Shown here: one piece after another, positions 21,574 to 64,000 of the stretch
Layout of the letters: the number at the start of each line of letters is the position of its first letter
Position numbering within the stretch: position 1 is the stretch's first letter
IMG/VR virus record: IMGVR_UViG_3300032240_000412
Coordinates: 1 to 64,000 of that record
Strand: one strand, 5' to 3'
Source: a virus
Length of the DNA: 64,000 bases
Position numbers and translations under genes: made by a program
Notes under the pieces: generated by a model
What the model was told of the DNA's origin: nothing
Database searches by the model: none
What the model saw: the letters and a program-made list of their open reading frames with translations, nothing else

Positions 21574-22079
21574 TATTTACAGCGATCCTTTACAGCGTCA
21601 CTGTTATATTTCCAAAATTCATCGTAATCTTGTAACCACCAAGTGCCGTGCTTGATACTGTTATAGATACTGTAGTTCTGCTCTGGGGCAATTACAGGAT
21701 CTTGTGTGGCAATAAACTTGCCTTTACGGTTGAATTTCATGATTAAAATACTAAAATCGCCAGGATCTGCTACCTCTAGCAGTTGACCTAGCCACGACTC
21801 TAGTATCTTAACTTCTCCTGAATACAGTTGATGAAACGGAAAATCAGCATAGCTCTTGCACTCGGCATTGAACTTTGGAAAACTTTGTCCAGGAACAATG
21901 TCGCCTTTGAAGTTTCGAATTTGGCCTTCGTGTAAAAACTCCTTACGAAAATTATTTTTACCCCCAACATACGCACCAGAACCTGGTACACGGATAAACT
22001 TTTCTCCGTATAGTGCTGTTAAGTGATCTGCAACTTGGCGTTCCCAAGCATTGCCTTTGGCCTTTTGTGGACTTGTCAT
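21573..22079 (-). CDS. PD-(D/E)XK nuclease, resolvase-like, 168 aa
   Basis: Small nuclease of the PD-(D/E)XK fold. The N-terminal helix KGNAWERQVADHLTALYG is typical of Holliday-junction-resolvase-like and MRR-like proteins, and the catalytic core is KGDIVPG (Asp60) followed by FNAECKSY (Glu73, Lys75). Residues GSGAYVGGKNNFRKEF between them could bind DNA. It may act in recombination-linked DNA repair or packaging junction resolution together with gp46/gp47 made from the same operon. It has ATGA-type overlap with the upstream radical SAM gene. Confidence 0.75.
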   Translation of the reverse strand: MTSPQKAKGNAWERQVADHLTALYGEKFIRVPGSGAYVGGKNNFRKEFLHEGQIRNFKGDIVPGQSFPKFNAECKSYADFPFHQLYSGEVKILESWLGQLLEVADPGDFSILIMKFNRKGKFIATQDPVIAPEQNYSIYNSIKHGTWWLQDYDEFWKYNSDAVKDRCK

Positions 22080-25766: not shown

Positions 25767-26458
25767 AGATGCTCGTAAATTAAGTTGGCTACATAGCTGT
25801 GGCCTTCTTTTGTTAAATGCCCTGTTGCAGTTACCGGAAACAGATTGTTGACTTTAATAGACGCAATGTAAAAATCGTTCCATTTAACAAAAGAGTCAGT
25901 GTCGATCAGACTTACATAATACTGTATTTCGTTCCACTCGTCAATGATTTGATTATCGTTCATGACTTCTAGATTAATAAGTTTGGAAAAAGATGCCGGT
26001 CCGTTTAACCAAACTGACAAATTGTTTTCTAACGCATTGATCATTACGTATTTTTTACCATGACTTTTTAACAAAGTTTGTAATTGAATAATTTGTTGTA
26101 GCCAAAGTTTAAAAGCATACAACTCGTTGTGCCAATGACTATAAAGTACCTTGCCCCAATTTTGATAGTGGGATTTACTTTCGTAATTGGGGTGTGATAA
26201 ACTTGGATTAAAATTTATTTCGTGGTTATTAGTTGAATCATAAAAAGTATATCTACTAGTACTGGTCCATCCAATTAAGAATAAATCAAAATCTTTTAAG
26301 TTACGAATAGTCTGATATACAGTGCGCGAGTTGGTACCGCCATCAACAGCATGATTCAGTAAGGGCGCACTCAGGCGCTCAGCAATCAGTTGCGGCCAGG
26401 CGTTATTGTTTAAATGCAAGCCCGCGGTCAGACTGCATCCATTTGCATAGATTCTCAC
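25754..26458 (-). CDS. SGNH/GDSL hydrolase-like protein, 234 aa
   Basis: IYANGCSLTAG (Ser9) corresponds to block I of SGNH hydrolases, LLNHAVDGGTNSRTVYQTIR to block II with its Gly, and GHLTKEGHSYVANLIYEHLC to block V with the catalytic His. The Asp usually three residues before the His is not obvious, so activity is uncertain. SGNH enzymes remove acyl groups from glycans or lipids. The gene is inserted between gp47 and gp46 with ATGA-type and 13-nt overlaps, so it is cotranslated with the recombination enzymes. The substrate may be a host glycan or a phage-made modification. Confidence 0.75.
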   Translation of the reverse strand: MRIYANGCSLTAGLHLNNNAWPQLIAERLSAPLLNHAVDGGTNSRTVYQTIRNLKDFDLFLIGWTSTSRYTFYDSTNNHEINFNPSLSHPNYESKSHYQNWGKVLYSHWHNELYAFKLWLQQIIQLQTLLKSHGKKYVMINALENNLSVWLNGPASFSKLINLEVMNDNQIIDEWNEIQYYVSLIDTDSFVKWNDFYIASIKVNNLFPVTATGHLTKEGHSYVANLIYEHLCLK

Positions 26459-45900: not shown

Positions 45901-48900
45901 TGAATGGAAATCGTTAGACAAAGCGCAAATCAAGTCTGGCTTATTACCTAATTTTGCTACTAATGCTCAACAGTTTGAAAGCTTCTACGATGCCGACGAA
46001 AGACCTGTTAGCAGTAGCCTGAATAAATTTGGTAGCGGACTAGTAGGGTTCCGTGCAAGAAATTATCTAAGTGATCTAAACATTGATGAAGGAACACAAT
46101 TAAAATTCTATCAAGGTTTATTGAAACAAAAAGGTACCAAAAATAGTATTGACGCACTAACAACAGCAACCTTTAGCAATATGCAAGGTGCACTGGATCT
46201 CTACGAAGAATGGGCAATACGGGTTGGCGAATTTGGTGCACTTGACACTAATCAATATTTTGAAGTCAATATAACGCCCGACGTAAGTCAAAAACTTGTT
46301 TGGCTCAACAACGATCCTAATCAAATACAAAAAGATACAGTCATTGTTACAAACGAAACACTGAATAAAAAATCTAATTTGTATCAACCTACATTTTCTA
46401 AAAACAGAGATAGAAGTACCTATTATCAAGACGATATTGCTACTGCTGGCTTTGTGAATCTGGCCGACATTGATGACACTATTTTTAATCTACAAAATTA
46501 TAAAAACCTAGATTCTGTTTTGAGCAAGATGGGATCTGGATATAAAATTTGGACAGCCAAAGACTTTAGTGGAAATTGGAACGTATACCGCGTCAGTGAA
46601 ACAAATAACTATGTTTCGTCACTGAGTTATGCATTAGACAATTTAATGGAATTTGAAACAGTTGCTCCGCATGGACTGACTGTAGGAGAAGTAATTGCTG
46701 TTAAAAATCTTGATACAGCATTTAATGGAGTATACCGAGTAAGTCATGTAACAGACCTAACTCACTTCAATGTATTAACTACAACCGAGCAGGCCAAACA
46801 ACTTTCTCAATCTGCAATTAATGGCAATGGCACATTGTTAAAAATGGAATCAATGAGATTCTCAAACTTGAACGATATCAAAGACTACATCCCAATGAAC
46901 GGTTGGAAAGCCAAAGATAAGATCTGGGTTGAAAATGCAACATCAACAGGCGAGTGGGGAGTGTTTAATAAAACTACTAGTTTCTTGTATAATACCAGTA
47001 TTGCCAAACGTCGAAGCGACTATATCCCACAAGGCAACGAAAACTTTGGTTATGCAGTAGCACTGAATTCTGACAATTCGTTAATGTTTGTTGGTGAACC
47101 GGGTAACGCATCTGGCACTGTTCGTGTTTATTCTAGATCCAAGTCCGGCGACTATGCTTATGCAACAGTATTGTTGCCATCAATTCACGACTTTACTTAC
47201 TCCGCTACACTAACTCCAAGTTTGGCTGAGTCTGAAAAATACGGTGCCGCAGTTGCACTAGGACACCTAGTAGGAGTAGTAGGCATTCCAGCGGCCAGCC
47301 GAGGCGGTATCCCTGGTATTGGTGCAGTTGAGATCTATCAACAGGTAGCGGCCAATGTGCTGGCATTGAAACAGACCATTGTTCCTCCAAACTATCGCGG
47401 GGACACTAACTATGTGGAATTTGGTTGGAGTGTGGCAGTCAGTCAAGACGACCGTTGGATATATGTTGGAGCACCTGGCGACAATGCAGTACACTGCTAT
47501 GGTCTACAGTACGCTGAGGCAAAAACTGACACACTAGATGTTAATCCCAATCAATCAGTATATACTCTACCTTTTACTCCAGCCAACCCTGACAGTATTA
47601 CTATCATTAGCAGTCGTCGAGCATTGGTTATTAACAATGATTATACATTGAGTGGTAATCGAATCACATTCTTGGTTACTACCTATACAGATACGCTGGT
47701 TATTATTCAAAACAGCTACTTTGCTTATGTAGATTCATTGAAATTAGATGATAACAATTACCAATATAGTCCAACTGACAGATTTGGTCATGTTGTAAAA
47801 TGCAATGCAGACGGCACTAAGATTTTAGTTACTGCGCCTGGAAGAAATGTTTTTAAATCAACCGGCGACGGACTACGTCCTGGTCAAATTGAAAACTCCG
47901 ACACAGCAGTTGGAGCAGGGCAAGTCTTTACATTTGATCGTAGTGTTGAAAAATTTGTTGCCAATGGCAAAACAAATGCATTTACACCACGTTATGCAAT
48001 CCCAACAATTTATTCTGTTAAAAAGAACGGAGTTACACAACAGGCCGGATTGCAAAATGATTACTACATTGGCAACGGCACAGTATTCTTTTTGAAAACA
48101 CCCGACAGCGGCGATGTAATTGAAATTGATACCAATAACTTCAATTTGATTGATGCTATTAGTGCTCCCGAGATCACTCCGTACGCAGAGTTTGGATCAA
48201 GTGCAGACATTACAAAAACTGGAGATAGAATTGTAGTTGGCGCACCTTACTACTCTGAAGGTGCATATAGAAGTGGACTAGCACATACCTATTACGACAG
48301 AACAAAAGTTAATGTTATCAATGGAATGGTACCTAACCCAGTTTCCTTAGTTGATAGCTCACTTAAAATCAATGGAGCATTTGTTAACTTTCCAATTGGT
48401 GCAGATGCATCACGCATGACAACATTGATTAATCAAGCACGTATCCCAGGCGTTGTTGCCGCCTTGGTCAATAGAGCTATAACTGTCAACGATTATACTG
48501 TTACCAGCAATCACGTCAAAACATCCCCAAGCGCACAGCTTGTTGGCACCTTTGCTAACTTTATACAAATTACCTCAGTATCAGCGTTGGAAGTGTTGCC
48601 CGACACCGGTGATGCAATGACTTGGATAGGTCTACAGTCACATCAATTTGAAAATACACTACTGAAACCTTATACCAGCCAAGAACAAGAGTTCTTTGGA
48701 ACAGCAGTGGCCATTGCAGAAGAAACAAATCAAATTTTAGTAAGCAGTGAAGGCGCAACCAATTATTTTGTTGGCAAGTATGATACAGGATTCACTGTTG
48801 ATCAAGGATCTACAACATTCTTTGATAGCATAAAAAATAGCGGATCAGTATATTCATACGACTACCTAGAGAATTATAATACCTACTCTGGAGACTATGT

Positions 48901-51900
48901 GTTTGGCCAACAGCTGATTCCAACAGATCTAATGCCAAATGTGGAATTTGGTAAGAGTGTTGTGGCCAACAAAGGCATGATAATTGTTGGCGCACCAAAC
49001 GATAGTACCAACGTTGTCAATGGCGGTATACTGCATAAATTTATTAATTTAGACAACACTAGCAGTTGGCAAAAGATTAGAAGCGAAGAGTCGATAGTCG
49101 ATGTAAGTAATATTGTTAAGTTGTTTACATACAAGAACTCAACACAAAAGATACAGTCGTACCTTGACTATATTGATCCTATTAGCGGAAAAATCTTAGG
49201 TGTAGCAGAACAAGACCTAGACTTTAAAACAGTATTTGACCCAGCGTCTTATAATATTACAACTCGCACAGATGTATCAAATAATGCAGAATACTATTGG
49301 ACTACCAACTACGTTGGCAAGCTATGGTGGAATTTGGATTTAATCAAGTATATTGACTATCGACAAGGTGAGTTATTGTACAGAGCGCAAAACTGGGCAA
49401 GACCGTTTCCTGGTTCAACAATACAAATTAACGAATGGGTACAGTCAGATGTGCTACCAAGCAAATGGGTATCGAGCGGAAAAGACGGTATTCCATTACA
49501 TGCCGATGACAGCGCATACGTACAAGATGTTTATGTAGATCGTACCACAGGAGTAATTACAACCAAATATTATTTCTGGGTATCTAATAGAACCACTGTG
49601 GCAACCGGTAGCAATAAAATTAATAGTGCATCCGCGGTTCAAAGTTTAATTGAATCTCCAAGAACACAAGGCATTAATTATGCGGCGTTCTTACGCAACG
49701 ATGCGTTTAAATTATTTGGTTTAGAAAATACCACAGACACAGACATTATTCTGCACGTTGACTATTCAATTCAGAATACTGAAAATTTAATTCACACTGA
49801 ATATAATTTGGTGCAAGAAGGCAATCCACTGAGTGCTATTCCTCCTAAGATTTATTCCAAGATGGTTGACAGTATCACTGGATTCGATGAGGCAGGCCGA
49901 GTAGTACCAGACCCAACATTGTTGGCGTCAGACAAAATTGGTACAAGTATTCGCCCAAGGCAGACACTAATCAAAGACAATATTGCGGCAACAGAAAACT
50001 TTATTAGATATATTAATTCTGTGTTTATTAAAAATCCAATAGTTGAAAGATTTGATATTGGGCAATTCTTGTCAGAAGAACCTGTGCCAATGGCACCGAT
50101 TACAGACGATCGTGGATTATTGGTTGGTGAATGGCACAAACAAGTTGCAGTATACGAGGATTTGAGTTACCTTGACTTAGCTACAATTCCCTACAGTGGT
50201 AATCAAATACGAGTACTAGTAACAACAGTGACAGCACAAGACAATCTATGGGCAATATATTCATACGATTCGGATACTGCATCTTGGAACTTGTATAGAA
50301 TACAAGCATACAAAACACCATTGACATGGGAGTACGCAGATTGGTACGATTCAACGTACAATCCTACTGTGCAACCCACGCATGTTGTTGCAACATACAA
50401 AGACGTTAAAACAATCAAAGTGTCAGTCAATGATACTATTAAAGTAAACAACGACGGCAAAGGTAAGTTTGTTATCTATCGTGTTAACTCTGACTATCGA
50501 CTTGATCTAGTAGGATACGAAAATGCTACTATACAACTTGGATCTTTGTTTTACGATATTGCTACAGCTAAAACAGGATTTGATGGCGCAAACTTTGATA
50601 CATTACGGTTTGATCACAATACCAGTGTTGAGTTGCGTAATATCATGAAAGGTATTCAAGATAATATATTTGTTGGATATCTAGCAAATGAATTTAGTAA
50701 TTTATTCTTTGTATTGGTCAATTATATTTTAAGCGAACAAAACAGCGTTGACTGGATATTTAAAACCAGCTTTATTAGTGTAGTTCATAAACTAAGAAAA
50801 CTAGCACAATATCCTAGTTATATCAGCGATAATCAAACTTACTACGAAGATTACATTAACGAAGTTAAGCCGTATAGAACAAAAATTAGAGAATATCTGT
50901 TGAACTACAGCGGAACAGACGTAGTACCAAACGATATAACTGACTACGATCCTTTGGTAAAATATAATTTTAACACTGGACATTTTTACAAACCAGAGTT
51001 GCCAACGGGAGTAGCAGAAGCCGCAAAATTCAGTATTGCGGAACTACAAATTGCTAAAGCTGGCACAGGATATTCATCAGAACCAGTGATTACAATATCT
51101 GCTCCAGGCGGACTTGGTAAGCAAGCAAAAGCTCGCGTGGTCATTGACTATGTGACAGGAAAGATTATTGATACCATCATAATAGATGCAGGATCAGGAT
51201 ACACTACCACTCCAGTGGTCACTGTGGATGGTAATGGTTCGGGTGCAATACTGTATGCCCAATTGGGAAATAGCCCAGTTCGTAGTATGCTGACACATAT
51301 CAAGTTTGACAGAATTTCTTATAACAGCCCAGTCAAACGTTGGCCAGGCACAGGAGAGACTACCACATACCATAATGGAGATATTGTAAGTGCAGAAGGA
51401 ACTGCTTATCAAGCATACAGTACTGTTACAGTTAGCAACAAAGTCTTTAATCCGTCGTTGTTTACCAAAGTTGACGCCAGCACGTTTACAAATGCCAATG
51501 ACCGAATAACTTCATACTATTATAGTTCATTGGGACAACCCGATTTGGATCTAAAACGTTTGGTCTCTGGCGTTGACTACCCTGGTAACTATATCACCGG
51601 CTTGAAGTTCTTAGAAAACAAAGGTGAAATTGAAGTCAACCTTAGTGTCAGATCAGACTCTGTATCTGGTTCCAGAAACTTTGAGTGGTGGGCAGGCAAT
51701 GCCACAATTACCAATGTTAGTTTTACAGCAGACGGTACTCAAGCACCAAACTTGCCAACTAAAACATATGGCTCTGGTGACTTGACATTGGTTGCTACAC
51801 CTAATTTAGGGTATAGAAATCAAGTTGTGTGGGCGCCATTGACTGGTTATCTTAAAGACCAAGTAGTACGTTTTGAAGGCAAGTACTATACTGCTCGACC

Positions 51901-52780
51901 TAAATATCCTCCTTATGTTAGTCTCTACACAGATAACACCTGTACTACATTCTCTCAGTGTGCAGACGAATTTGTTGAGATATCTTTGTATCCAAATGCT
52001 GGAAGCTATCTAGTTGACAGCATCAGTAATACTGGTATCACTTTGTTGAACGCCAGCATTAACCAACAGCTAGTTGGTACCAGTCAGACTGATGGTCCTG
52101 GATATTTCTTAAAATTAGTCTACAATATTCCAGCACCGTATCTAGATCAAGAAGATACTTATATTGATGGTGCTAAGTTCACCGATGGAGAACCAGAAGT
52201 AACAGACGTTATTCTAGATGGTGGCAAGTTTTACGATACCTATAGCAGTCATGCACCAGAAGAACTAATTCCGGGAGTCACATACGACTCGTTGGTGATG
52301 AAGGTGTTTACACAAACGCAAAACGAAATTCGTTTAACAACCGGTATTGTGATTCCGGCTGGTACATTGCTGGGCTATGTACAAACAATTGACCATGCTG
52401 GAAACTTTAAGTTTACTAGAATTCGACAATCTAACACTACAACACTAGCGCAAGATTTAAATGCGTTAGATACCAGTATGGTTGTGACTGATGCCACTGT
52501 GTTGCCAAATCCGGATACAGTATCAGGTAGACCGGGCATAGTATGTGTCAATGGCGAAATTATCAAGTATTTGGAATTAGACAGAGAAACCAATACAATA
52601 TCACGTTTAATTCGTGGTGCTAACAAAACAGGCTGGCAAACAACTGTTACAGCTGGTACAGTAATTACTGATATTGGTGATAATAGACTACTGTTAGATG
52701 ATAAAAATCTATTTTGGTCAGCTTTCCAATTGCAGTCTGATCCGGATCCCAGTTATGATCCAGGAACAGCACACATATGA
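39971..52780 (+). CDS. Giant baseplate wedge/peripheral protein (gp7 position), 4269 aa
   Basis: The largest gene here (12.8 kb), directly after gp6. Its N-terminus TINFLPEIFRSNANTKFLNA then FSQYYWLPYGP is a family I know from T4-like environmental phages at the gp7 position. Conserved middle block RPHTHPWEMFGFSEQPAWWL (near 1425). Residues ~2350-3030 form seven FG-GAP-type blades, each starting [EDN]xFG and containing a VGxP/VGAP-like strand (near 2355, 2421, 2481, 2602, 2738, 2906, 2990). Three short W..Y.kGd.V.y....Y.A modules, similar to carbohydrate-binding modules, occur near 1940, 3790 and 3955, and GYSSEPVITI/GYTTTPVVTV repeats near 3700-3740. Structural role from position; binding roles are inferred. 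Confidence 0.85.
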   Translation: MAAVKTINFLPEIFRSNANTKFLNATLDQLVSEPSLDKINGYVGRQFSPTYKTSDNYIIEPSARRQVYQLEPTVVVNDPNGTPQFLGTYIDLLQKLEYYGAYTGNQDRLFAQENYSFNPLIDFDKFINFSQYYWLPYGPNLVSVSAAPETVLGGGTVTATDLMYSRTEKGFTVSYNNSSSQENPTLYLERGITYTFNPMTTGTEFWIQTEPGLSGTKKTQPGVSTRDVLGVNNNGATNQAITFTVPLATAQDQYVKMAVAQPLPGKNVTFACELAFSQIHNQLLSQINLIGGISGNTTTNKNNIDGKFLVFLPVNATTQVYSPDGLFDYDPEGYDGFKFDGGRAVPPGVLSAYQVFDPWAIPGAFDKYRFGEDNIGFDEGLRPDVQPGDGAAVDPQQRYGIWRISATPTSDGLDTLIQLSYAGDINFNNKVYITSGLYSGFEFYKDSSGLLSKVPAITAPLDTFYYQDGMSEMLAGQIKIIDPLSISLDVEEKILGQTAYTSPNGIEFTNGMLIQFDSTVTPAKYTNGLFYVEGVGTGIVLSNYNDLATPDSGVLTASASYDASAFDVTGYDAAAGTGGALDYITINRSSIDGNAWSRSNRWFHIDVIKKTAEYNKTVPLLDQVKRANRPIIEFNPHVQLFNHGRQFKSPVQILTTTVTDAFNQIENKPIGTELDGTPLDAGLRIIFANNVDKIYRNKIFVIKQKEIAGLKTIHLVQDSDSEILEGHQVLVTAGANIGMAFYYNGTDWIESQKKYGVNQAPLFDMFDQDGNSFADANIYYGSTFTGTKIFSYGVGSGTVDYNLGFPLKYRNFNQIGDIVFDNNYDIDSFTYLVQNVTVPVKINSGYAKINNGLDKFVYSNNWYTNTYPSRQYQVITNFYTDTRYFEVDINPMSATMMMGGGHTKVFVNNKYIGANFTETNVKRIKTIVINDNVTLSPGDKIDILIHSLDVSKMGYYQIPDNLDYNAQNQNFSELTLGQMRNHISTKATNALTIVGPVPGPSNLRDIDIRGSSGSILQHSSSMLYQSLFVTNNDTNLFNSLEYAEKEYNKFKNKFLELSVKNNYDTTNAGKTVDAILTEINKVKNASYPWYYSDMVPYGDNFKVARPTYTIYDNGITEIEISSIFNNYVSSNKALLVYYTSQAVSGKAAFQAGSNVIAVDITSLSNYSQLAIPTYTQRAYIGTVISGDGIPPGTTIIGVDVNTFTIILSNPVTTTGVFKITTTPTTRLLVLGNDYIFNQTRPTIVLDPKFYSLIGDMIDVVEYTSTDGNYIPETPTKLGLYPKFTPGIFLDETYQTPVKVIQGHDGSLTPAFGDFRDELLLELETRIYNNIKLPYRSDLFNISELTPGKFRATDYTLKEYNQVLTRSFLRWVGEQQIDFTSNNTFDGGNPWTWNYSKTTDSINGERLPGFWRGIFKYFYDTDRPHTHPWEMFGFSEQPAWWLYRYGEAPYTGKNSQLWEDVETGFIADPANPRYDIKFARPGIYKSIHKSINFLPVDEFGILRPPSGFISADTTGFNAGGSFAIGDCGPVEAAWRRSSSYPYAVQRTMALLKPAAYFGKLINVNKYSNNNPVGQFLLTNTNQRIKSTDVAINGETVNGTISRTAGYINYISDYLKSRGIDPYNNTGVGVSLRNYLDNITIQLGYKVGGFTDKKLLKTLAEHSSPSSTNTSIIIPDDNYKIILNKSTPIKKFVYSAVIVQISETGYTVSGYNSKFPYFTIIPSITNGNAYTITQLNESGIIYRDYQNLKLTVPYGYEFKTRQQVVDFLVSYGRYLTSQGINFDDFDPELQQRPDFVLSANEFLAWSQQGWKKDNLIVLSPINNTLSLITRDSVVDAIDNSLNGSRLLDQQFGVIRTSDLSVVRDDTNFSVTSINKTPICLAELDLVQYEHVLLFDNTTVFNDVIYSPALGNRQSRLRLVGSKTADWTGKLAPPGFIYSSDKFQTWQVGRDYRKGELVEYKNNYYVALDDVTATDRFKATEWKSLDKAQIKSGLLPNFATNAQQFESFYDADERPVSSSLNKFGSGLVGFRARNYLSDLNIDEGTQLKFYQGLLKQKGTKNSIDALTTATFSNMQGALDLYEEWAIRVGEFGALDTNQYFEVNITPDVSQKLVWLNNDPNQIQKDTVIVTNETLNKKSNLYQPTFSKNRDRSTYYQDDIATAGFVNLADIDDTIFNLQNYKNLDSVLSKMGSGYKIWTAKDFSGNWNVYRVSETNNYVSSLSYALDNLMEFETVAPHGLTVGEVIAVKNLDTAFNGVYRVSHVTDLTHFNVLTTTEQAKQLSQSAINGNGTLLKMESMRFSNLNDIKDYIPMNGWKAKDKIWVENATSTGEWGVFNKTTSFLYNTSIAKRRSDYIPQGNENFGYAVALNSDNSLMFVGEPGNASGTVRVYSRSKSGDYAYATVLLPSIHDFTYSATLTPSLAESEKYGAAVALGHLVGVVGIPAASRGGIPGIGAVEIYQQVAANVLALKQTIVPPNYRGDTNYVEFGWSVAVSQDDRWIYVGAPGDNAVHCYGLQYAEAKTDTLDVNPNQSVYTLPFTPANPDSITIISSRRALVINNDYTLSGNRITFLVTTYTDTLVIIQNSYFAYVDSLKLDDNNYQYSPTDRFGHVVKCNADGTKILVTAPGRNVFKSTGDGLRPGQIENSDTAVGAGQVFTFDRSVEKFVANGKTNAFTPRYAIPTIYSVKKNGVTQQAGLQNDYYIGNGTVFFLKTPDSGDVIEIDTNNFNLIDAISAPEITPYAEFGSSADITKTGDRIVVGAPYYSEGAYRSGLAHTYYDRTKVNVINGMVPNPVSLVDSSLKINGAFVNFPIGADASRMTTLINQARIPGVVAALVNRAITVNDYTVTSNHVKTSPSAQLVGTFANFIQITSVSALEVLPDTGDAMTWIGLQSHQFENTLLKPYTSQEQEFFGTAVAIAEETNQILVSSEGATNYFVGKYDTGFTVDQGSTTFFDSIKNSGSVYSYDYLENYNTYSGDYVFGQQLIPTDLMPNVEFGKSVVANKGMIIVGAPNDSTNVVNGGILHKFINLDNTSSWQKIRSEESIVDVSNIVKLFTYKNSTQKIQSYLDYIDPISGKILGVAEQDLDFKTVFDPASYNITTRTDVSNNAEYYWTTNYVGKLWWNLDLIKYIDYRQGELLYRAQNWARPFPGSTIQINEWVQSDVLPSKWVSSGKDGIPLHADDSAYVQDVYVDRTTGVITTKYYFWVSNRTTVATGSNKINSASAVQSLIESPRTQGINYAAFLRNDAFKLFGLENTTDTDIILHVDYSIQNTENLIHTEYNLVQEGNPLSAIPPKIYSKMVDSITGFDEAGRVVPDPTLLASDKIGTSIRPRQTLIKDNIAATENFIRYINSVFIKNPIVERFDIGQFLSEEPVPMAPITDDRGLLVGEWHKQVAVYEDLSYLDLATIPYSGNQIRVLVTTVTAQDNLWAIYSYDSDTASWNLYRIQAYKTPLTWEYADWYDSTYNPTVQPTHVVATYKDVKTIKVSVNDTIKVNNDGKGKFVIYRVNSDYRLDLVGYENATIQLGSLFYDIATAKTGFDGANFDTLRFDHNTSVELRNIMKGIQDNIFVGYLANEFSNLFFVLVNYILSEQNSVDWIFKTSFISVVHKLRKLAQYPSYISDNQTYYEDYINEVKPYRTKIREYLLNYSGTDVVPNDITDYDPLVKYNFNTGHFYKPELPTGVAEAAKFSIAELQIAKAGTGYSSEPVITISAPGGLGKQAKARVVIDYVTGKIIDTIIIDAGSGYTTTPVVTVDGNGSGAILYAQLGNSPVRSMLTHIKFDRISYNSPVKRWPGTGETTTYHNGDIVSAEGTAYQAYSTVTVSNKVFNPSLFTKVDASTFTNANDRITSYYYSSLGQPDLDLKRLVSGVDYPGNYITGLKFLENKGEIEVNLSVRSDSVSGSRNFEWWAGNATITNVSFTADGTQAPNLPTKTYGSGDLTLVATPNLGYRNQVVWAPLTGYLKDQVVRFEGKYYTARPKYPPYVSLYTDNTCTTFSQCADEFVEISLYPNAGSYLVDSISNTGITLLNASINQQLVGTSQTDGPGYFLKLVYNIPAPYLDQEDTYIDGAKFTDGEPEVTDVILDGGKFYDTYSSHAPEELIPGVTYDSLVMKVFTQTQNEIRLTTGIVIPAGTLLGYVQTIDHAGNFKFTRIRQSNTTTLAQDLNALDTSMVVTDATVLPNPDTVSGRPGIVCVNGEIIKYLELDRETNTISRLIRGANKTGWQTTVTAGTVITDIGDNRLLLDDKNLFWSAFQLQSDPDPSYDPGTAHI

Positions 52781-57078: not shown

Positions 57079-58071
57079 ATGACATACGCACAAAGCTCAG
57101 TAATTGTAGGAACAGACTATAACACTTTTGTACAAGGTGGTGATACAGTTAATCACAACGTTGCAAACATTAACAGTGTTTGGGGTGTTGGCAACGGTAA
57201 CAAAGGTTATGGTCAAAGTACTACACTAGCATCAGTTGCTAGCACAAATACTATTACTGCTACACAGTGGTCAAATTTGATCGCTCGTTTAAACAGTATT
57301 TTAACACACCAAGCCGGTTCTGGATCAGGCATTAGTGCTCCTACTTCTGGTACAACTATTGCATATCTAAGTGCGTTGTCTGGCAGTATCACGACCGGTT
57401 ACAACAATCGTTTAACAGCGGCAACAAACGGTACAGATATTACAAACACCACACTAACAACAGCATGGAATACAGCTACTCCAACTACATTTACAGTTAC
57501 TCGTACTGCGACATTTGCATCAGCTGATGCCGCACGTTATTTCTTTAATGCTGGTGGCAAATTAATCATCAACTTGAGCGGAACAGATAACCTAAGCAAC
57601 AGCAAGGGCACTGACTGGGTCAGCTTGTTGGGTACAAAGTTTGCTAGCTTGACATTTGGTGCAACCACAAACGGACGCAACGGTAGCGGTGGTACAGTAA
57701 GTTCAAGTAATACATCATTGGGCTACTGGAATTTAACCACAAGCGATCAAGCTATTTTAACTCTGACATCTGCGTCAGGAACCGCTGACTACAGTAGCAA
57801 CAACATTGTAGTCAACGTTAAATCAAACGGTGTTCAAGGTTCTAACGGTGACGTTGGTAGCGTTATCACTTTCACTATCACCTTAAACGATCCAGCCGCT
57901 GATACTAACACAGCACCTCCTGGGATTCCAGCTTACACACCAGCTGGTACAGCACCATCACAAGGTAACTTTAACGATGCAATTAACTTAACTGTTAGCT
58001 CTTCGATCACAGTTCGCCCACCTGAATCAACCAACATAACAAACACCTGGGGTACAGTTACTCAAGGTTAA
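57079..58071 (+). CDS. Virion structural protein, 330 aa
   Basis: Begins MTYAQSSVIVGTDYNTFVQG and contains NSVWGVGNGNKGYGQSTTLA, TATQWSNLIARLNSILTHQA, DAARYFFNAGGKLIINLSGT and TDWVSLLG, wording that recurs in tail structural proteins of T4-like environmental phages. Thr/Ser/Asn-rich, no Cys, likely beta-sandwich (ITFTITLNDPAADTNTAPPG, INLTVSSSITVRPP). Last gene of the late plus-strand block; a strong sigma70 promoter follows. Specific virion position unknown. Confidence 0.72.
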   Translation: MTYAQSSVIVGTDYNTFVQGGDTVNHNVANINSVWGVGNGNKGYGQSTTLASVASTNTITATQWSNLIARLNSILTHQAGSGSGISAPTSGTTIAYLSALSGSITTGYNNRLTAATNGTDITNTTLTTAWNTATPTTFTVTRTATFASADAARYFFNAGGKLIINLSGTDNLSNSKGTDWVSLLGTKFASLTFGATTNGRNGSGGTVSSSNTSLGYWNLTTSDQAILTLTSASGTADYSSNNIVVNVKSNGVQGSNGDVGSVITFTITLNDPAADTNTAPPGIPAYTPAGTAPSQGNFNDAINLTVSSSITVRPPESTNITNTWGTVTQG

Positions 58072-58077: not shown

Positions 58078-58106
58078 TTGACATTTGGCAGTAGAGCATA
58101 TATAAT
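58078..58106 (+). promoter_or_regulatory. Perfect-consensus sigma70 promoter of the radical SAM/glycosyltransferase operon
   Basis: TTGACA (58078-58083), 17-bp spacer, TATAAT (58101-58106): an exact match in every position to the bacterial consensus. Transcription would start about base 58113, the first base of the ATG, so the mRNA would be leaderless. Confidence 0.9.
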
Positions 58107-58124
58107 GTTTATATGTCTACTGCC
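58087..58124 (+). promoter_or_regulatory. Candidate operator: 15-bp inverted repeat over -10 and start codon
   Basis: GGCAGTAGA-G-CATATA (58087-58102) and TATATG-TCTACTGCC (58110-58124) are complementary except for one unpaired base, with a 7-nt centre. The repeat covers the -10 element, the presumed start site and the first four codons. Only the right arm would be in the RNA, so a DNA-binding dimer is the likelier reader than an RNA hairpin. Confidence 0.65.
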
Positions 58125-58427
58125 AATCAACTTGTCGAGCAAATAAAACTCTCAACCGATTTCCAACTAAACAAAAAACGGTTAAAGGAAAAGATCCTAA
58201 CCGATTTGCACATTCCGTACAATAACGGATTGTTCTTGGTTGATCGATCACTTATAGCCTTCCTTAATTCTTGGGAAGATGAAATAATTTATATTGAAGA
58301 TGTATATCAAAATCCTGTTCAGGTTAATAGGATTGAATTGTTGACATTGGCCAAACAGCATTATCAACTAGTTATGAATCAATGGCATCAAGAATATGAC
58401 CAACTTCGTCGAGTTAGAAAAATCTAA
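58113..58427 (+). CDS. Conserved hypothetical protein, 104 aa
   Basis: Opens the non-structural operon at a consensus promoter. It is acidic to neutral and helical with NNGLFLVDRSLIAFLNSWED then EIIYIEDVYQNPVQVNRIEL and AKQHYQLVMNQWHQEYDQLR, a pattern I associate with a small conserved T4-like protein of unknown function. ATG overlaps the promoter palindrome and has no upstream ribosome-binding site if the transcript begins at 58113. Overlaps the next gene by 32 nt. Confidence 0.7.
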   Translation: MSTANQLVEQIKLSTDFQLNKKRLKEKILTDLHIPYNNGLFLVDRSLIAFLNSWEDEIIYIEDVYQNPVQVNRIELLTLAKQHYQLVMNQWHQEYDQLRRVRKI

Positions 58428-59220
58428 AGGTGTATTGTATTTTGTATTTGATACTAAAGAATTTAAGTATTCTGAGATTGCCAAAACAAATGTACAATTA
58501 ATTAACCATTTTTTAAAACTGCCTGTTACTGTGGTAACGGACAGCGAAACACCAATTGATTTTGCAGTCGATCGAGTGATACGACTAGATACAAGCAACG
58601 AAGTCATAAACACCAGATACTCCAGTACACACAGGACAAGAACACAGTGGCGCAATGGATTTAGACATCAAAGCTATCAGCTGAGTCCTTATACTGAAAC
58701 ATACGTAATTGATGTTGACTACGTGGTGCTCAATGACAACTTGCTAAAACTTCCTGTACAGGACTATTGCCTTTACAAGAGTAATGTTTACTTAAACAAT
58801 AGTGATGCTCATGAAACAATGGGTATATACAGTTTACCATTTCTTTGGGCCACTGTGTTATTTTTTAAAAAATGTCCTAGAACAGAGTTGATGTTTGGGT
58901 TAGTAGAACGCATACAGAGTAACTATAATTATTATCGTGCCCTGTACAACATACCAGACCCAGCATTTAGAAATGACTATGCATTTGCCATAGCCGATAA
59001 CATAGTTGAAGGCTACGCCGATAGCGTAAAGCATATACCTTGGTCGTTGACCACAGTAGATAACACCGTCAGTTCTATAGAAGTTAAAGGCAGTAAAGTT
59101 TATGTCAAGCAACACAACACAGCCCATGTGTTGCCAATGATGGATCTACATATATTAGACAAAGTGTATTTGCAGTCAACTCAGCACAAAGATTTTGTAA
59201 CATCTATTTTAAATGCGTAA
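58396..59220 (+). CDS. GT-A-type glycosyltransferase-like protein, 274 aa
   Basis: N-terminal Rossmann-like half (KGVLYFVFDTKEFKYSEIAK, LPVTVVTDSE) leads to ETYVIDVDYVVLNDN near residue 110, a DxD motif (DVD) in the context 'ttyviDsDyiv.nd' typical of nucleotide-sugar-dependent GT-A enzymes. The TRYSSTHRTRTQWRNGFRHQ segment before it is another common feature. C-terminal half unassigned. The enzyme would transfer a sugar to an unknown acceptor. Overlaps with both neighbours (32 nt and 8 nt). Confidence 0.75.
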   Translation: MTNFVELEKSKGVLYFVFDTKEFKYSEIAKTNVQLINHFLKLPVTVVTDSETPIDFAVDRVIRLDTSNEVINTRYSSTHRTRTQWRNGFRHQSYQLSPYTETYVIDVDYVVLNDNLLKLPVQDYCLYKSNVYLNNSDAHETMGIYSLPFLWATVLFFKKCPRTELMFGLVERIQSNYNYYRALYNIPDPAFRNDYAFAIADNIVEGYADSVKHIPWSLTTVDNTVSSIEVKGSKVYVKQHNTAHVLPMMDLHILDKVYLQSTQHKDFVTSILNA

Positions 59221-60076
59221 ACATCCACATCAAGCACAGCAAGGCTTTTTTACTTTTGCTCAGAACAATACTACAACAGATTATCTAGCAATGGCCTACG
59301 TGCAAGCAATGAGCGTTAAGTTAGCCATGCCCGGATCGTTGTATGCAGTAGCGGTAGATAAAGATACATTGTCGTTGATAACAGATCAACACCGACAAGT
59401 ATTTGATTATGTAATTGAAATTGATGAAGACTATGCCAAGGATGACGAATGGAAGCTGGCCAACGAGTGGCAGGCTTTTTGGCTGACTCCTTTTAAAGAA
59501 ACCATCAAACTAGAAGCAGATTTACTAATACCTGCAGATATATCACATTGGTGGAATGGTTTTAGACTGCGTGATGTAGTATTAAGCACAAACTGCCAAA
59601 CATATATGGGCACTACTGTTACAAGTGACACGCTACATAGAAAAATTTTCATTGACAACAACTTGCCCAATGTCTATAACGGACTAATGTATTTTAGATA
59701 TAGTCAAATATCCAATTACTTTTTTAGTGTGGCGAGAGACATATATCAAGATTGGGACAGCGTTAGAAATACGTTAAAGAATTTACACAATATCAAACCG
59801 TCTACAGATCTAGTATATGCCATCACTGCCATGTTTGTAGGACCAGAGTTTGTTACTCTACCCACCTTGAACTTTATTAACTTTGTTCACATGAAGCCGT
59901 CATTGCAAGGATGGAAGCAAGATGACGATTGGACTGACTCGGTCATGACAGAATTTGATTTACCAATAATACGAATCAACAACAGGAATCAATATCATCC
60001 AATACACTACCATCAGAAAAATTTTATAAAAAAGGAGGTTGTAGATGAATACCAACGAAGACTTGGCATTAGCTGA
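59213..60076 (+). CDS. GT-A-type glycosyltransferase-like protein, 287 aa
   Basis: GFFTFAQNNTTTDYLAMAYV then QAMSVKLAMPGSLYAVAVDK is the start of a recurring phage glycosyltransferase family ('d.yv..Ay.la.slk...'). The metal site is probably ETIKLEADLLIPAD (ExD variant of DxD near residue 100), followed by VLSTNCQTY and NGLMYFRYS, where the acceptor pocket lies. It follows the related 274-aa gene and overlaps it by 8 nt. Donor and acceptor are unknown. Confidence 0.75.
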   Translation: MRKHPHQAQQGFFTFAQNNTTTDYLAMAYVQAMSVKLAMPGSLYAVAVDKDTLSLITDQHRQVFDYVIEIDEDYAKDDEWKLANEWQAFWLTPFKETIKLEADLLIPADISHWWNGFRLRDVVLSTNCQTYMGTTVTSDTLHRKIFIDNNLPNVYNGLMYFRYSQISNYFFSVARDIYQDWDSVRNTLKNLHNIKPSTDLVYAITAMFVGPEFVTLPTLNFINFVHMKPSLQGWKQDDDWTDSVMTEFDLPIIRINNRNQYHPIHYHQKNFIKKEVVDEYQRRLGIS

Positions 60077-60410
60077 AGCATTTGCCAGCATAGTCCCACA
60101 GCCAGAGTACAAAATAGAATATAGACTCTACTATGACAACGCAGGCAAGCCCACTTGCATGAGTTCAAATAATCATCCAGAGGGTCAATATGTCATAATA
60201 GACAAAGCCACATACGATCGAGCAATATATAATAATCTCAAAGTGGTAAACGGAACACTAATTACCATTGACACTAGCTCCCAACATCGTGTACAATTAC
60301 AAAAGGTGGAGTCTGGGCCTTTTCGCACAGCAAAGAATAACGCTGGCATATTACTAACCAAAGACGAACAAGTAGAACAAACAGATTACTATGACCACAG
60401 AAATAATTGA
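60045..60410 (+). CDS. Hypothetical protein, 121 aa
   Basis: Starts at ATG 60045 with a strong AAGGAGG ribosome-binding site inside the end of the glycosyltransferase gene. The sequence YKIEYRLYYDNAGKPTCMSS and PEGQYVIIDKATYDRAIYNN then LKVVNGTLITID reads as a small beta domain. I have seen similar small proteins beside such glycosyltransferases in environmental phages, function unknown. Overlaps both neighbours (32 and 20 nt). Confidence 0.7.
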   Translation: MNTNEDLALAEAFASIVPQPEYKIEYRLYYDNAGKPTCMSSNNHPEGQYVIIDKATYDRAIYNNLKVVNGTLITIDTSSQHRVQLQKVESGPFRTAKNNAGILLTKDEQVEQTDYYDHRNN

Positions 60411-61287
60411 TGTAGCAGACTTAGACTGCATATACTTAACATATGATGAACCTAAGAAAGAAGAGTTTTGGATCAAGATTCAAAACATGGTGCCATGGGC
60501 CAAGCGAGTTGATGGAGTCAAGGGCAGTGATGCCGCACACAAAGCCGCGGCTGATGCTAGTGATACTGATAGATTTGTTCTTATTGATGGCGATAACATT
60601 CCTGATGCTGAATTTTTTAATCTACAACTATCCCTGGATGATCACAATCGTGATTGTGTATTTCGTTGGCGAGCACGTAATGTGGTTAATGGACTAATGT
60701 ATGGCAACGGAGGTATGAGTTGTTGGACCAAGGACTTTGTACACGATATGAAAACTCATGAATCCAGCGACGGATCATCTGCCAATGATGTGGAGTTTTG
60801 TTTCTACCCCAACTACTGGGCAATGAATGACTGCTACAGCACTACATATCCCAATGGTAGCCCACTACATGCTTGGCGTGCCGGCTTCCGCGAAGGAGTT
60901 AAGATGTGTTTGGACAGAGGAGTTAAGCCCACTGTTGCAGAGTTTGAAAGTCGTGTTAACAATCGTAATTACGATAATCTATGTATTTGGCAAACTGTTG
61001 GAGCCGATTCTGATAATGGGTTTTGGTCAATTTATGGAGCACGTCTCGGCACATACCTTACCATGATCGAAGGGTGGGATTATAAAAAAGTACAAGACTT
61101 TGACGAGTTAAAAGCATTGTGGACACAATATGAAAATCATGATGCTGACCACTGCACAGAAATTGGACAAGTATTACGTACAAGACTAGGTTTGCCGATT
61201 GTGGATATGGATCCAGACGAAAGCCGGTTTTTCAAACATCATTATCGTAGCAACTTTAAAAATAAAGGACCAATGATTTGTGAGTAA
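60391..61287 (+). CDS. Probable glycosyltransferase, 298 aa
   Basis: The core CIYLTYDEPKKEEFWIKIQN, MVPWAKRVDGVKGSDAAHKA and ASDTDRFVLIDGDNIPDAEF (DGD near residues 68-70) is a GT-A-like nucleotide-sugar site. FRWRARNVVNGLMYGNGGMS then CWTKDF and HAWRAGFREGVKMC may form the acceptor side. Its order in the cluster (after two GT genes and before radical SAM genes) supports a shared modification pathway. The reaction product is unknown. Confidence 0.72.
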   Translation: MTTEIIDVADLDCIYLTYDEPKKEEFWIKIQNMVPWAKRVDGVKGSDAAHKAAADASDTDRFVLIDGDNIPDAEFFNLQLSLDDHNRDCVFRWRARNVVNGLMYGNGGMSCWTKDFVHDMKTHESSDGSSANDVEFCFYPNYWAMNDCYSTTYPNGSPLHAWRAGFREGVKMCLDRGVKPTVAEFESRVNNRNYDNLCIWQTVGADSDNGFWSIYGARLGTYLTMIEGWDYKKVQDFDELKALWTQYENHDADHCTEIGQVLRTRLGLPIVDMDPDESRFFKHHYRSNFKNKGPMICE

Positions 61288-62665
61288 ATCAGATTTCATG
61301 ACCGATGCTGAAAACATGCGAGACCTATTGGGTCCTGCTCTTTGTTTGGCCAAATGGAAACAACTAAGCCTGCATTTACCAACTGGTTTAAACAATAGCT
61401 GTTACCACCCGCCGTTGCACTCAATAGACCCAGACGAAGTAAAAATCAATCCTGGCGCACTACATAATACAGCACATAAAAAAGAACAGCGTAAGATTAT
61501 GTTACGCAACGAAAAACCCAGCGAATGCAGTTATTGTTGGAACATGGAAGCCAATGGTCAATTAAGTGATCGACACTATCGCAGTGGTGAGCCTTGGGCC
61601 TCTGAAGACTATGAAAAAATTAAAAATTCAACAGGAGATGAAAATGAAGTTGTTCCGTCCTACGTCGAGGTTAACTTTAACCATGCGTGTAATCTCAAAT
61701 GTAGTTATTGCAGTCCTCAGTTTAGTAGCACTTGGGGTCAAGAAGTTGACAAGTTTGGCGGATTCCCAACAACGCCTATTCACAACGATCCTAGCCATTT
61801 TACTGGTCGCAATCGTCCTATACCACATTCCCACGATAATCCTTATGTTGATGCATTCTGGCAATGGTGGCCAAGTCTTTATCCGCATCTAAAACATTTC
61901 CGCATGACCGGTGGTGAGCCACTAATGGATCGGAATACATATAAAGTGTTTGACTATGTACTAGCGTTACCTAAGCCAGACCTGCACTTGAATGTGACCA
62001 GCAACTTCAGCGTAGAGCCGCAATTATGGAACAAGTACTTTGACTATGTAAAAAAATTATGTAATACCAATATTGAGCATTTCATGCAGTATGTTAGTCT
62101 TGACACTGGTATTCCCGAACAGGCCGAGTATGTTCGTAGTGGCATGAACTACCATAGAGTTATGAGTCGTGTCAATCATTACCTAACAGACATTCCTTAT
62201 AGGAATAGTCTGACGTTTATCATTACAATGAATAACCTCAGTGTACTTGGCCTACAAAGATTACTGGATAGAATCTTGGAATTACGTAAAGCACATAGCA
62301 CTACATACCAAAGAGTTTGGTTTGATACACCAGTGCTACGTAAACCAGAATGGCAAAGTCTACAGATACTTCCATCGGTATACAGCGAGCATTTAGAACG
62401 TATTGCAGACTGGATGGAACTAAATTTAGAAACACCAGAACGCCCATTCCAGGGATTTAAGGATTACGAAGTACAACGTCTAAGAAGAGACATTGCCTGG
62501 ATGAAAAAAGGCAGTGAATTGGACCCTGAATATGTTAAACTGCAACGTGCTAACTTTTACAGGTTCTTTAACGAGCACGATAAACGACGTGGAACCAACT
62601 TTGAAAAGACATTCCCACAGATGATTGAATTTTGGAAAGAATGTAGATACTATGCACAGCAATAA
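61280..62665 (+). CDS. Radical SAM protein, N-terminal Cys module, 461 aa
   Basis: Cys137, Cys141 and Cys144 (NHACNLKCSYCSPQFSSTWG) bind the SAM cluster and FRMTGGEPLMDRNTYKVFDY is the GGEP strand. Upstream lies an extra Cys region, CYHPPLH (Cys41) and ECSYCWNME (Cys83, Cys86), which is shared with the next two genes. It resembles what databases call twitch-domain radical SAM proteins of phages, but here the extra Cys pair is N-terminal. GTG start at 61280; Met7 is an alternative. Substrate unknown. Confidence 0.88.
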   Translation: MSKSDFMTDAENMRDLLGPALCLAKWKQLSLHLPTGLNNSCYHPPLHSIDPDEVKINPGALHNTAHKKEQRKIMLRNEKPSECSYCWNMEANGQLSDRHYRSGEPWASEDYEKIKNSTGDENEVVPSYVEVNFNHACNLKCSYCSPQFSSTWGQEVDKFGGFPTTPIHNDPSHFTGRNRPIPHSHDNPYVDAFWQWWPSLYPHLKHFRMTGGEPLMDRNTYKVFDYVLALPKPDLHLNVTSNFSVEPQLWNKYFDYVKKLCNTNIEHFMQYVSLDTGIPEQAEYVRSGMNYHRVMSRVNHYLTDIPYRNSLTFIITMNNLSVLGLQRLLDRILELRKAHSTTYQRVWFDTPVLRKPEWQSLQILPSVYSEHLERIADWMELNLETPERPFQGFKDYEVQRLRRDIAWMKKGSELDPEYVKLQRANFYRFFNEHDKRRGTNFEKTFPQMIEFWKECRYYAQQ

Positions 62666-63812
62666 CTGTCCGTTGTATAGCAAAGGCTTGTATGTTGAAA
62701 AAATAAACAGCACAGAATCACGAGTGAGTATGTGCTGTTATCAATCAATGAGTCCGCAAGTATATACCAACATAGATTTTGATAACAATGACTATCTGAT
62801 TAAGTTACGCAACGATGCAGAGTCTGGAGAGAAAATTCCCGAGTGCCAGGGTTGTTGGACAGCAGAAAAGTTTGGTATTAAAAGCTATAGACAAGGACAG
62901 ATCGAATCTTTTAATTTTCAAAACATCCCCGTTGATAAAACTGTAGAATTAATTAGCTTGTTATACAACTGTGAAAATACCTGTAATTTGAAATGTATCA
63001 CATGCGGTCCACGTTACAGTTCGGCCTGGAGACAAGAGTACCAAAAATTAAATAAACTTGGTGAGTGGGACATTGTATCATCTAAGCAGACTTCTTTAAA
63101 AAATGATATTAGTTGTACATTGGATTTATCTAAAACAAAACTAATACATTTTCAAGGCGGCGAGCCATTACTAACCAAGGATCACGAAGCGGTATTACAG
63201 CAGGCATTAGATCAACACAATCTAACAGAAACTATTGTTAGCTACAACACCAATGGCACAGTATTCCCTAGTGCTAATACACAACAGCTTTGGAAAAATG
63301 CAAAGCTGGTAAAATTATACTTTAGTATTGATGCCATTAAAGATCAATTTGAATATGTTAGATACCCAGGCAACTGGCAAGCAGTTGAGGAAAATTTACT
63401 AAAGATTAAAAACACTATTCCCAATGTTTGGATTGAAATAGGTGTAACAGTGGGACTTGCTAACATATTCTATTTAAAAGATATTTTAGATTGGAGAGAA
63501 GCTAATTTTAATACTACCTTGTCTGGAGATCCAATCGGAATATACTTTAATCTGGTCAGTGATATAGAACCTGGAACAAGCGGACTAATGAAATTAGAAA
63601 ATGCCAGTGGTAAAATCAAGGATCAAGCATTGGAGTATATTGATTCGTTAAGATCATACAGTAATGTCACAGGCATAAACGAAATGAAGAATGCGCTAAT
63701 TGATGCAACAGAAAACAACAAGTGGATTGACTTTTTAAACCAATTGGATAAAATTAGGAACACCAATTGGAATAAATCGTTGAGTAAATTACATAGATGT
63801 GTTACAATATAA
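62652..63812 (+). CDS. Radical SAM protein, N-terminal Cys module, 386 aa
   Basis: Second copy of the tandem radical SAM set. Cys111, Cys115 and Cys118 (NTCNLKCITCGPRYSSAW) and IHFQGGEPLLTKDHEAVLQQ give the radical SAM core; CYQSMSPQ and ECQGCWTAEKFGIKSYRQGQ (Cys65, Cys68) repeat the N-terminal Cys module. I prefer ATG 62652, with GGAAAGA upstream, over the TTG at 62625 because the module starts at Met there. Overlaps the previous gene by 14 nt. Confidence 0.88.
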   Translation: MHSNNCPLYSKGLYVEKINSTESRVSMCCYQSMSPQVYTNIDFDNNDYLIKLRNDAESGEKIPECQGCWTAEKFGIKSYRQGQIESFNFQNIPVDKTVELISLLYNCENTCNLKCITCGPRYSSAWRQEYQKLNKLGEWDIVSSKQTSLKNDISCTLDLSKTKLIHFQGGEPLLTKDHEAVLQQALDQHNLTETIVSYNTNGTVFPSANTQQLWKNAKLVKLYFSIDAIKDQFEYVRYPGNWQAVEENLLKIKNTIPNVWIEIGVTVGLANIFYLKDILDWREANFNTTLSGDPIGIYFNLVSDIEPGTSGLMKLENASGKIKDQALEYIDSLRSYSNVTGINEMKNALIDATENNKWIDFLNQLDKIRNTNWNKSLSKLHRCVTI

Positions 63813-63818
63813 AATATT

Positions 63819-64000
63819 ATGCCCAAATTTAACAACGAAACAGATTTAGAATATAAGCGCAGAGTAATTGACATCAAGTCAAGTAGCTTCTGCGGAGCAA
63901 AATGGTATAACGCTACTATTTGGTTAGGTAGCGGTATGACCACAAGTTGTCATCATCCGTTGCCACACAAGGTTGATGTTGATGACGTAATACGAAACCC
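63819..64000 (+). CDS. Radical SAM protein, third tandem copy (cut by window edge)
   Basis: ATG 63819 begins 6 nt after the stop of the previous gene. The 60 residues in the window (MPKFNNETDLEYKRRVIDIK then SSSFCGAKWYNATIWLGSGM and TTSCHHPLPHKVDVDDVIRN) match the N-terminal Cys module of the two preceding genes (C-[YH]HP.LH.[IV]D.D) and continue out of frame of view. The radical SAM core itself lies beyond 64000, so the call rests on homology to its neighbours. Confidence 0.65.
   Translation, partial: MPKFNNETDLEYKRRVIDIKSSSFCGAKWYNATIWLGSGMTTSCHHPLPHKVDVDDVIRN

Follow-up and report, generated by a model that had tools for sequence, protein, structure and literature searches.

A conserved island of twitch-domain radical SAM enzymes and glycosyltransferase-like proteins behind the tail-fibre genes of a large tailed phage

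Results

Organization of the island

The window, that is, the whole 64,000-nt stretch analysed here (positions 1 to 64,000 of the 96-kb virus record IMGVR_UViG_3300032240_000412), ends inside a gene island that lies directly behind the tail-fibre genes of a large tailed phage. The features at its beginning are the following.

57079-58071: S/T/N/G-rich protein of 330 aa, directly upstream of the operon in 77/77 loci
58078-58106, + strand: sigma-70 promoter TTGACA-N17-TATAAT, 12/12 match, inside the 41-nt gap preceding the operon
58113-58427, + strand: s104, protein of 104 aa, first operon gene
58396-59220, + strand: GT1, putative GT-A-type transferase
59213-60076, + strand: GT2, putative GT8-like transferase
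60045-60410, + strand: s121, protein of 121 aa
60391-61287, + strand: GT3, putative GT-A-type transferase
61280-62665, + strand: rSAM1, N-terminal-twitch radical SAM enzyme, core
62652-63812, + strand: rSAM2, N-terminal-twitch radical SAM enzyme, variable-slot
63819-65168 of the record (cut by the window edge at 64000), + strand: rSAM3, N-terminal-twitch radical SAM enzyme, core

All open reading frames of the initial annotation were confirmed, from s104 to the frame that opens at 63819 and runs to the edge; that of rSAM2 spans 62625-63812, and an ATG at 62652 is a likelier start than the TTG at 62625. Followed past 64000, the three tandem radical SAM genes first noted proved to be the beginning of a tandem array of six (61280-69012), and 58113-64000 to be the first half of one head-to-tail gene run of about 16 kb (58113-74065). 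Its 16 junctions, from s104 to base 74065, comprise 14 overlaps of 1-35 nt and two gaps of 6 and 72 nt. After the six radical SAM genes come, in order, an orphan protein of 378 aa (u378), two SGNH-like proteins, an O-carbamoyltransferase (71488-72987) and a kinase/nucleotidyltransferase, and alongside the run are found a GT3-like repeat protein of 739 aa (GT739, 75184-77403), a DegT aminotransferase and an epimerase.

The overlapping junctions and the promoter bear out the earlier view of a single operon that follows the structural genes and is driven by a host-type promoter of its own. The perfect TTGACA-17-TATAAT sequence occurs once in the 64-kb window, where 0.11 would be expected by chance. 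Of the homologous gaps, 45/88 score at least 10/12 for this promoter, as against 2.3% of shuffles, and the same score is reached before most internal genes in 1-4% of cases and before u378 in 13%. The late T4 promoter TATAAATA showed no enrichment. From the dedicated sigma-70 promoter the host polymerase would transcribe a single long operon.

Six paralogous radical SAM enzymes

All six radical SAM proteins pass the whole-protein cut-off of 170 bits of NF033640 (NCBIfam, twitch domain-containing radical SAM protein), scoring from rSAM1 to rSAM6 308, 216, 303, 405, 359 and 282 bits, the value for rSAM3 being that of the whole gene. The CxxxCxxC motif and the N-terminal four-Cys auxiliary site are invariant across the six paralogues, and in 117-135 homologues per core type these motifs show at most one exception each; in rSAM1 the CxxxCxxC, the 4-Cys twitch and a GGEP motif are kept in 129/129 homologues. 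rSAM1, 3, 4, 5 and 6 form five separate orthologous groups with intact motifs, the rSAM3 clade having a support of 100 in the tree. rSAM2 is not among them, and the loci retrieved with rSAM4 as query contained no orthologue of it. NF033640 is a family without an assigned reaction, within which five stable subfamilies are thus resolved. A 13-sequence alignment of mixed radical SAM types was too divergent for a scan of the collection. Recent tandem duplication was rejected as the source of the array, because identity is mostly 18-32% between paralogues and 57-86% between orthologues (24 full relatives).

The nearest solved relative by the twitch domain is BtrN (2-deoxy-scyllo-inosamine dehydrogenase, PDB 4m7s/4m7t). 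Residues 18-107 of rSAM4 match the C-terminal twitch of BtrN (E 4e-4), a match that covers no catalytic-domain residues. The auxiliary-cluster domains are alike in sequence, but in BtrN (270 aa) the twitch is C-terminal to the radical SAM domain, whereas in the island enzymes (about 390-460 aa) it is N-terminal. In this N-terminal position they depart from BtrN-type alcohol dehydrogenases, and we claim only that the enzymes may work like BtrN.

Proteins of the first half and downstream genes

The initial annotation of three GT-A-like proteins is plausible for GT1, GT2 and GT3 and proven for none, since GT2 has a weak glycogenin/GT8 similarity, GT3 weak fold matches, and GT1 an invariant DxD only. 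In GT1 this motif (D106, D108) was read from a 20-sequence alignment, and a PDB sequence search gave no match. GT2 matches a glycogenin profile (E=0.0015) and belongs to phrog_1903, a family without assigned function. GT3 has an invariant D66-x-D68-N69 in a 21-sequence alignment; the best fold matches of its AF2 model (pLDDT 78) are mostly GT-A or nucleotidyltransferase folds, all weak (E at least 0.02), and it matches GT739, which contains similar units, at 26%. None of the three matched a curated glycosyltransferase family in Pfam or NCBIfam, s104 found no family above cut-off in profile searches, and profile searches found no solved relatives of GT3, GT1 or u378. A fold search with u378 was likewise without match in the PDB and gave uncharacterised phage proteins only, one of them from Agrobacterium phage Atu_ph07.

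Further downstream, the O-carbamoyltransferase is of the Nol/NodU type, with both Carbam_trans domains (PF02543 and PF16861, N and C) far above cut-off, and matches 138 phage records. The kinase/nucleotidyltransferase is kinase/cytidylyltransferase-like. An NMN-adenylyltransferase-like domain was found in the island as well.

Conservation and distribution

Gene order in the island is constant across well over 100 viral loci, with the same fibre genes in front. A radical SAM gene is present in 53/53 GT3 loci. The 77 GT3 loci that include 4 kb of upstream sequence all contain GT1, GT2 and two genes of the fibre region (77/77); s104 has an orthologue in 72 of them and s121 in 48. Loci with u378 carry rSAM3, rSAM4, rSAM6 and GT739 in 63/63 cases, the carbamoyltransferase in 57, the DegT protein in 56 and the epimerase in 50. 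Variable slots hold GT-like, SGNH, B12-radical SAM and other radical SAM genes, and O-antigen loci likewise have variable cassette slots. The statement that this is not a T4 core module is true for T4; in the present lineage, fixed order, intact orthologues and co-occurrence indicate, from comparison of the loci, that the island is a core module with variable cassette slots.

A search of 50,697 phage records found nothing that matched GT3, s104 or u378 and no isolated phage with the module; rSAM1 gave only weak matches there, to Vibrio phages. Twelve large carrier records contained no psbA, and therefore no sign of a cyanobacterial host. Related radical SAM clusters occur on Bdellovibrionota chromosomes, one with all five types. 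These bacterial clusters include few glycosyltransferase genes, so that the radical SAM set may not need them. Among 120 bacterial neighbours tallied there were 13 further radical SAM proteins, 2 carbamoyltransferases, 2 GT2-family proteins and 2 ketosynthases, with no single pathway. The 'MAG' matches L044-L048 were dropped as bacterial evidence: four have the same phage fibre genes upstream, and L048 groups with those in the tree.

Discussion

We consider it somewhat more probable than the contrary that the island encodes a glycan pathway of the phage, with the radical SAM enzymes remodelling a sugar and the glycosyltransferases placing it on the host surface or the virion. The initial annotation had proposed that an unusual sugar or a radical-modified group could be built and installed. 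The context agrees with this (carbamoyltransferase, DegT, epimerase, SGNH and GT-like proteins, and a fixed place behind the fibre genes), and the product itself is inferred, as are the sugar substrate, the chemistry, the acceptor and any gain to the phage. The downstream genes suggest work on glycans but assign it to no known pathway, and the genes, far from being unrelated in phylogenetic distribution, travel together across loci.

In such a pathway, the five core N-terminal-twitch enzymes and the variable-slot extras would act as a set. In each, a [4Fe-4S] cluster bound by CxxxCxxC would cleave SAM, and the auxiliary twitch cluster could guide the substrate radical to an oxidised, epimerised or deoxygenated product. 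By analogy with BtrN, the substrate would most likely be an activated or carrier-bound sugar. The aminotransferase and epimerase would make this sugar, to be decorated by the carbamoyltransferase and the SGNH proteins; its transfer to an acceptor would fall to GT1, GT2, GT3 and GT739. The acceptor may be a glycan of the host envelope, so that superinfection or the loss of progeny is blocked, or else the fibre proteins whose genes lie immediately upstream. The early-type promoter makes us lean slightly to the host surface.

Some observations count against a glycan. Most characterised SPASM/twitch radical SAM enzymes have peptide substrates. GT1-3 belong to no curated family, the BtrN match is to the twitch only, and the bacterial radical SAM neighbours are diverse.

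The strongest alternative, though an unlikely one, is protein modification: as in RiPP maturation, the radical SAM enzymes would introduce crosslinks, epimers or C-methyl groups into a polypeptide of the phage (the 330-aa protein, another fibre, s104 or s121), which the glycosyltransferases would also glycosylate. Besides the usual peptide substrates of such enzymes, the constant place of the 330-aa protein, the two small co-conserved proteins and the scarcity of glycosyltransferases in the bacterial clusters speak for it. However, no RiPP precursor-like family or recognition domain was found, and RiPP maturation as known makes no use of a carbamoyltransferase, a DegT aminotransferase or an epimerase. 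Moreover, relatives of the 330-aa protein (18% T, 12% S, 0% C) diverge down to 32%, while the substrate of several enzymes might be expected to be constrained.

Less probable still is the biosynthesis of a diffusible aminocyclitol- or cofactor-like compound, glycosylated by the GTs and directed at the host or at competing phages. The BtrN-type twitch and the NMN-adenylyltransferase-like domain would fit, as would a bacterial relative (L087) that adjoins carrier-protein- and ketosynthase-like genes, ketoacyl synthases being also in the neighbour tally; but the fixed place behind the fibre genes and the glycan-locus-like variable slots do not, and no exporter or carrier-protein gene was seen.

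Arrays of several radical SAM genes have been known in phages since 2010 and were taken for loose metabolic helpers. Unlinked auxiliary genes boosting host metabolism, as proposed for Campylobacter phages CP220 and CPt10 (Timms et al. 2010, PMC2853527), are very improbable here, because the five orthologues are distinct, keep their motifs, stand in a fixed order and occur together in divergent phages, which argues for one dedicated pathway. The roughly 10-kb swap-in module of those phages has five radical SAM genes, an amidinotransferase and nucleotide-diphospho-sugar-transferase-like proteins (Timms et al. 2010, PMC2853527). Both systems are multi-radical-SAM modules beside sugar-transferase-like proteins in large phages, but theirs is described as interchangeable whereas the present island is fixed, and theirs contains no orthologues of the core five, only rSAM5 finding a weak match (29% over 177 aa).

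Hypermodification of DNA, which the initial annotation had allowed for, is the least credible reading: phage glycosyltransferases do act on modified DNA and the promoter is of early type, but the thyA homologue keeps the residues of a true thymidylate synthase, PF00303 found no match in 5/12 large carrier records, no base-modifying enzyme was among the genes examined, and the island sits with tail rather than replication genes.

In pelagimyophages, a host-recognition cluster has glycosyltransferases and radical SAM cassettes in a variable island adjoining the tail-fibre genes (Zaragoza-Solas et al. 2020, PMC7029224). In Pelagibacter phage Mosig, genes for MoaA-like enzymes lie close to tail genes, grouped with those for an ArnB-like aminotransferase and a carbamoyltransferase. 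The carbamoyltransferase and DegT protein are sequence-homologous to those of the island; the Mosig MoaA-like proteins gave no tblastn match to the six radical SAM enzymes at E 1e-3, and a fixed five-enzyme set is not reported for these phages.

More tentatively, the five non-redundant enzymes might constitute a single obligate pathway of several steps that can pass between phages and Bdellovibrionota chromosomes. Its product would be a group that is not known in glycans or peptides of phages or bacteria, and the pathway would be a core trait of a large-phage lineage that is widespread. With its fixed order, its five separate orthologous enzymes, a promoter of its own and relatives in one bacterial phylum, such an array becomes a testable pathway. 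It would show that radical chemistry is a core and not an auxiliary function of phages, and might bring to light new chemistry of sugars or peptides and a new means by which phages alter surfaces.

The T4-like marine genome TARA_ERS488813_N000010 is reported to carry 12 radical SAM genes and an Fe-S carrier (Nishimura et al. 2017, PMC5332604). Compared by its description only, which in the passages on this genome gives neither gene order nor a dedicated glycan-like operon, this large T4-like phage resembles the present ones in combining many radical SAM genes with an A-type Fe-S carrier. Such A-type carriers are encoded in 9/12 of the large carrier records.

Organization of the operon

The virus record is 96,422 bases long; the window covers its bases 1-64000, and we also read the remainder. 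The open reading frames of the initial annotation are all present, arranged head to tail. The first five genes, s104, GT1, GT2, s121 and GT3 (58113-61287; GT1-GT3 being putative GT-A-type transferases), are followed by tandem N-terminal-twitch radical SAM (rSAM) genes that run on past the window edge, up to rSAM6 (genome base 69012). From s104 to base 74065, 14 of 16 junctions are overlaps of 1-35 nt, and two are gaps (6 and 72 nt).

Genes from rSAM1 onwards (genome coordinates)
61280-62665, rSAM1
62652-63812, rSAM2
63819-65168, rSAM3
65165-66499, rSAM4
66483-67700, rSAM5
67693-69012, rSAM6
69002-70138, u378, 378-aa protein without family
70113-70916, SGNH/DUF6071-like protein 1, Pfam match under cut-off
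70989-71522, SGNH/DUF6071-like protein 2, Pfam match under cut-off
71488-72987, carbamoyltransferase (CarbT)
72984-73844, P-loop kinase/nucleotidyltransferase
after the preceding gene, 73-aa ORF
74046-75185, minus strand, 379-aa protein (GT379), adjoining the operon
75184-77403, 739-aa protein with GT3-like units (GT739)
77467-79516, minus strand, DegT aminotransferase and NAD epimerase
beyond this pair, thyA, then a reductase reading like DHFR

A perfect TTGACA-17-TATAAT promoter at 58078-58106 is the only one within the window (0.11 expected). Homologous gaps score at least 10/12 in 45 of 88 cases, against 2.3% of shuffles; other tested gene starts reach this score in 1-4%, and the u378 start in 13%. 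In the gap before s104, several relatives (L011, L012, L019, L160, L163) have an inverted repeat, AGGTGTAG...CTACACCT, that spans the -10 box of this promoter and is possibly an operator or a 5' RNA hairpin; no such repeat was noted at the window's own promoter.

Conservation and variable slots

Among 30 viral loci from the rSAM4 scan, 24 (L010-L033) share, up to contig ends, the order s104-GT1-GT2-s121-GT3-(slot)-rSAM1-(slot)-rSAM3-rSAM4-rSAM5-(slot)-rSAM6-u378-SGNH-CarbT-kinase, where a slot is a variable cassette position. Upstream lie a 330-aa protein (57079 homologue) and, wherever the contig extends there, a fibre gene (55541 homologue). The GT3 and u378 scans gave at least 599 and at least 528 confirmed relatives, of which the top 80 from each scan were examined; the following counts cover loci with enough flank among these, and are partly non-independent because some contigs recur across scans. 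rSAM genes are present in 53/53 GT3 loci, and 77/77 have GT1 and GT2 as well as the genes for the 330-aa protein and the fibre; u378 loci carry rSAM3, rSAM4, rSAM6 and GT739 in 63/63, CarbT in 57/63, DegT in 56/63 and the epimerase in 50/63.

rSAM2, which occupies a slot, has no orthologue among the compared loci. Slots elsewhere hold other rSAMs, SGNH, B12-rSAM, a DUF2061 membrane protein or GT379-like genes. In some loci the slot before rSAM6 holds a member of one orphan protein family, 262-263 aa long (L010 12508-13296, L011 15139-15927, L019 13587-14375, L026 13382-14173), N-terminally reminiscent of u378; these orphans frequently adjoin an extra rSAM and are possible rSAM partner proteins. 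One slot protein (L014 4166-5206), with no Pfam match, reads like an amidinotransferase, recalling that of the Campylobacter-phage modules.

Enzyme families and their history

All six rSAMs pass the cut-off of NF033640, the NCBIfam twitch domain-containing radical SAM family. The six paralogues share three invariant features, CxxxCxxC, GGEP and a four-Cys site near the N-terminus; 117-135 homologues per core type (all but rSAM2) keep them too, with no more than a single deviation in each type. Residues 18-107 of rSAM4 match the twitch of BtrN in a profile search (E 4e-4); this twitch is C-terminal in BtrN but N-terminal in rSAM4, so that the domain order is swapped. GT2 is similar to glycogenin (E 0.0015), GT1 and GT3 both have an invariant DxD, and the GT3 model (pLDDT 78) finds weak fold matches, the best mostly GT-A or nucleotidyltransferase.

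Paralogous rSAMs are mostly 18-32% identical, and orthologues 57-86% (24 full relatives). In a 129-row tree, a quick build with long branches from which transfer direction is not readable, rSAM3, rSAM5 and rSAM6 form well-supported groups; rSAM4 (support 81) and rSAM1 (support 31, where the divergent L034 row disturbs the grouping) have lower support, and one origin each suffices for them. An 84-kb Bacteriovoracaceae contig (L055) has all five core types within one cluster, flanked by genes reading as rplU/obgE and lgt. A search with its rSAM6 hit 40 of 369 Bdellovibrionota genomes (E 1e-30 or better), and the weaker hits may belong to other types within NF033640; several of ten loci read have rSAM6 with rSAM5 and/or rSAM3. 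The phage module, accompanied by fibre genes, also occurs on L044-L047, which had been assigned to genome bins of Verrucomicrobia, Rickettsiales, Betaproteobacteria and Pelagibacter; these contigs are probably contaminants of phage origin.

Proposed pathway and acceptor

The aminotransferase, epimerase, carbamoyltransferase, SGNH and GT-like genes, together with the cassette slots, suggest a sugar substrate, on which the rSAMs would act one after another before neighbouring enzymes decorate and transfer it. The operon, the enzyme families and their motifs, orthology, synteny, the promoter and the slots are direct observations; this route is an inference drawn from them. Action of the rSAM set on a peptide, towards which the habit of the family and bacterial clusters with few GTs point, seems to us the less likely reading. 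A bacterial rSAM6 homologue (L155 8664-9911) with genes reading as glmU and glmS on either side offers a lead towards amino sugars rather than proof. The early-type promoter points to the host surface as target and the fixed position behind fibre genes to the virion; the genes favour neither decisively.

Campylobacter phages have interchangeable modules of five rSAM genes (Timms et al. 2010, PMC2853527), and pelagimyophage host-recognition islands combine GTs with rSAM cassettes, for which a host O-chain change was proposed (Zaragoza-Solas et al. 2020, PMC7029224). Nishimura et al. (2017, PMC5332604) reported a T4-like genome that encodes 12 rSAM proteins together with an Fe-S carrier. We found no description of the present fixed five-enzyme rSAM island in the literature searched, of which coverage was partial.

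Genome scale and other loci

Twelve large carrier records (221-354 kb) each have 6-17 NF033640 genes over the cut-off, and nine have one or two A-type Fe-S carriers. No such carrier was found within the 96-kb record, which is probably a fragment. Two further rSAM genes (22076-22957 and 22954-24000, minus strand), below the NF033640 cut-off, overlap in a minus-strand cluster adjoining recombination-type AAA/metallophosphatase genes, beside an SGNH/DUF6071 protein (25754-26458). One ORF of 4269 aa (39971-52780) lies amid baseplate and fibre genes; at that position some relatives have ORFs of about 1400-1500 aa that match it in part.
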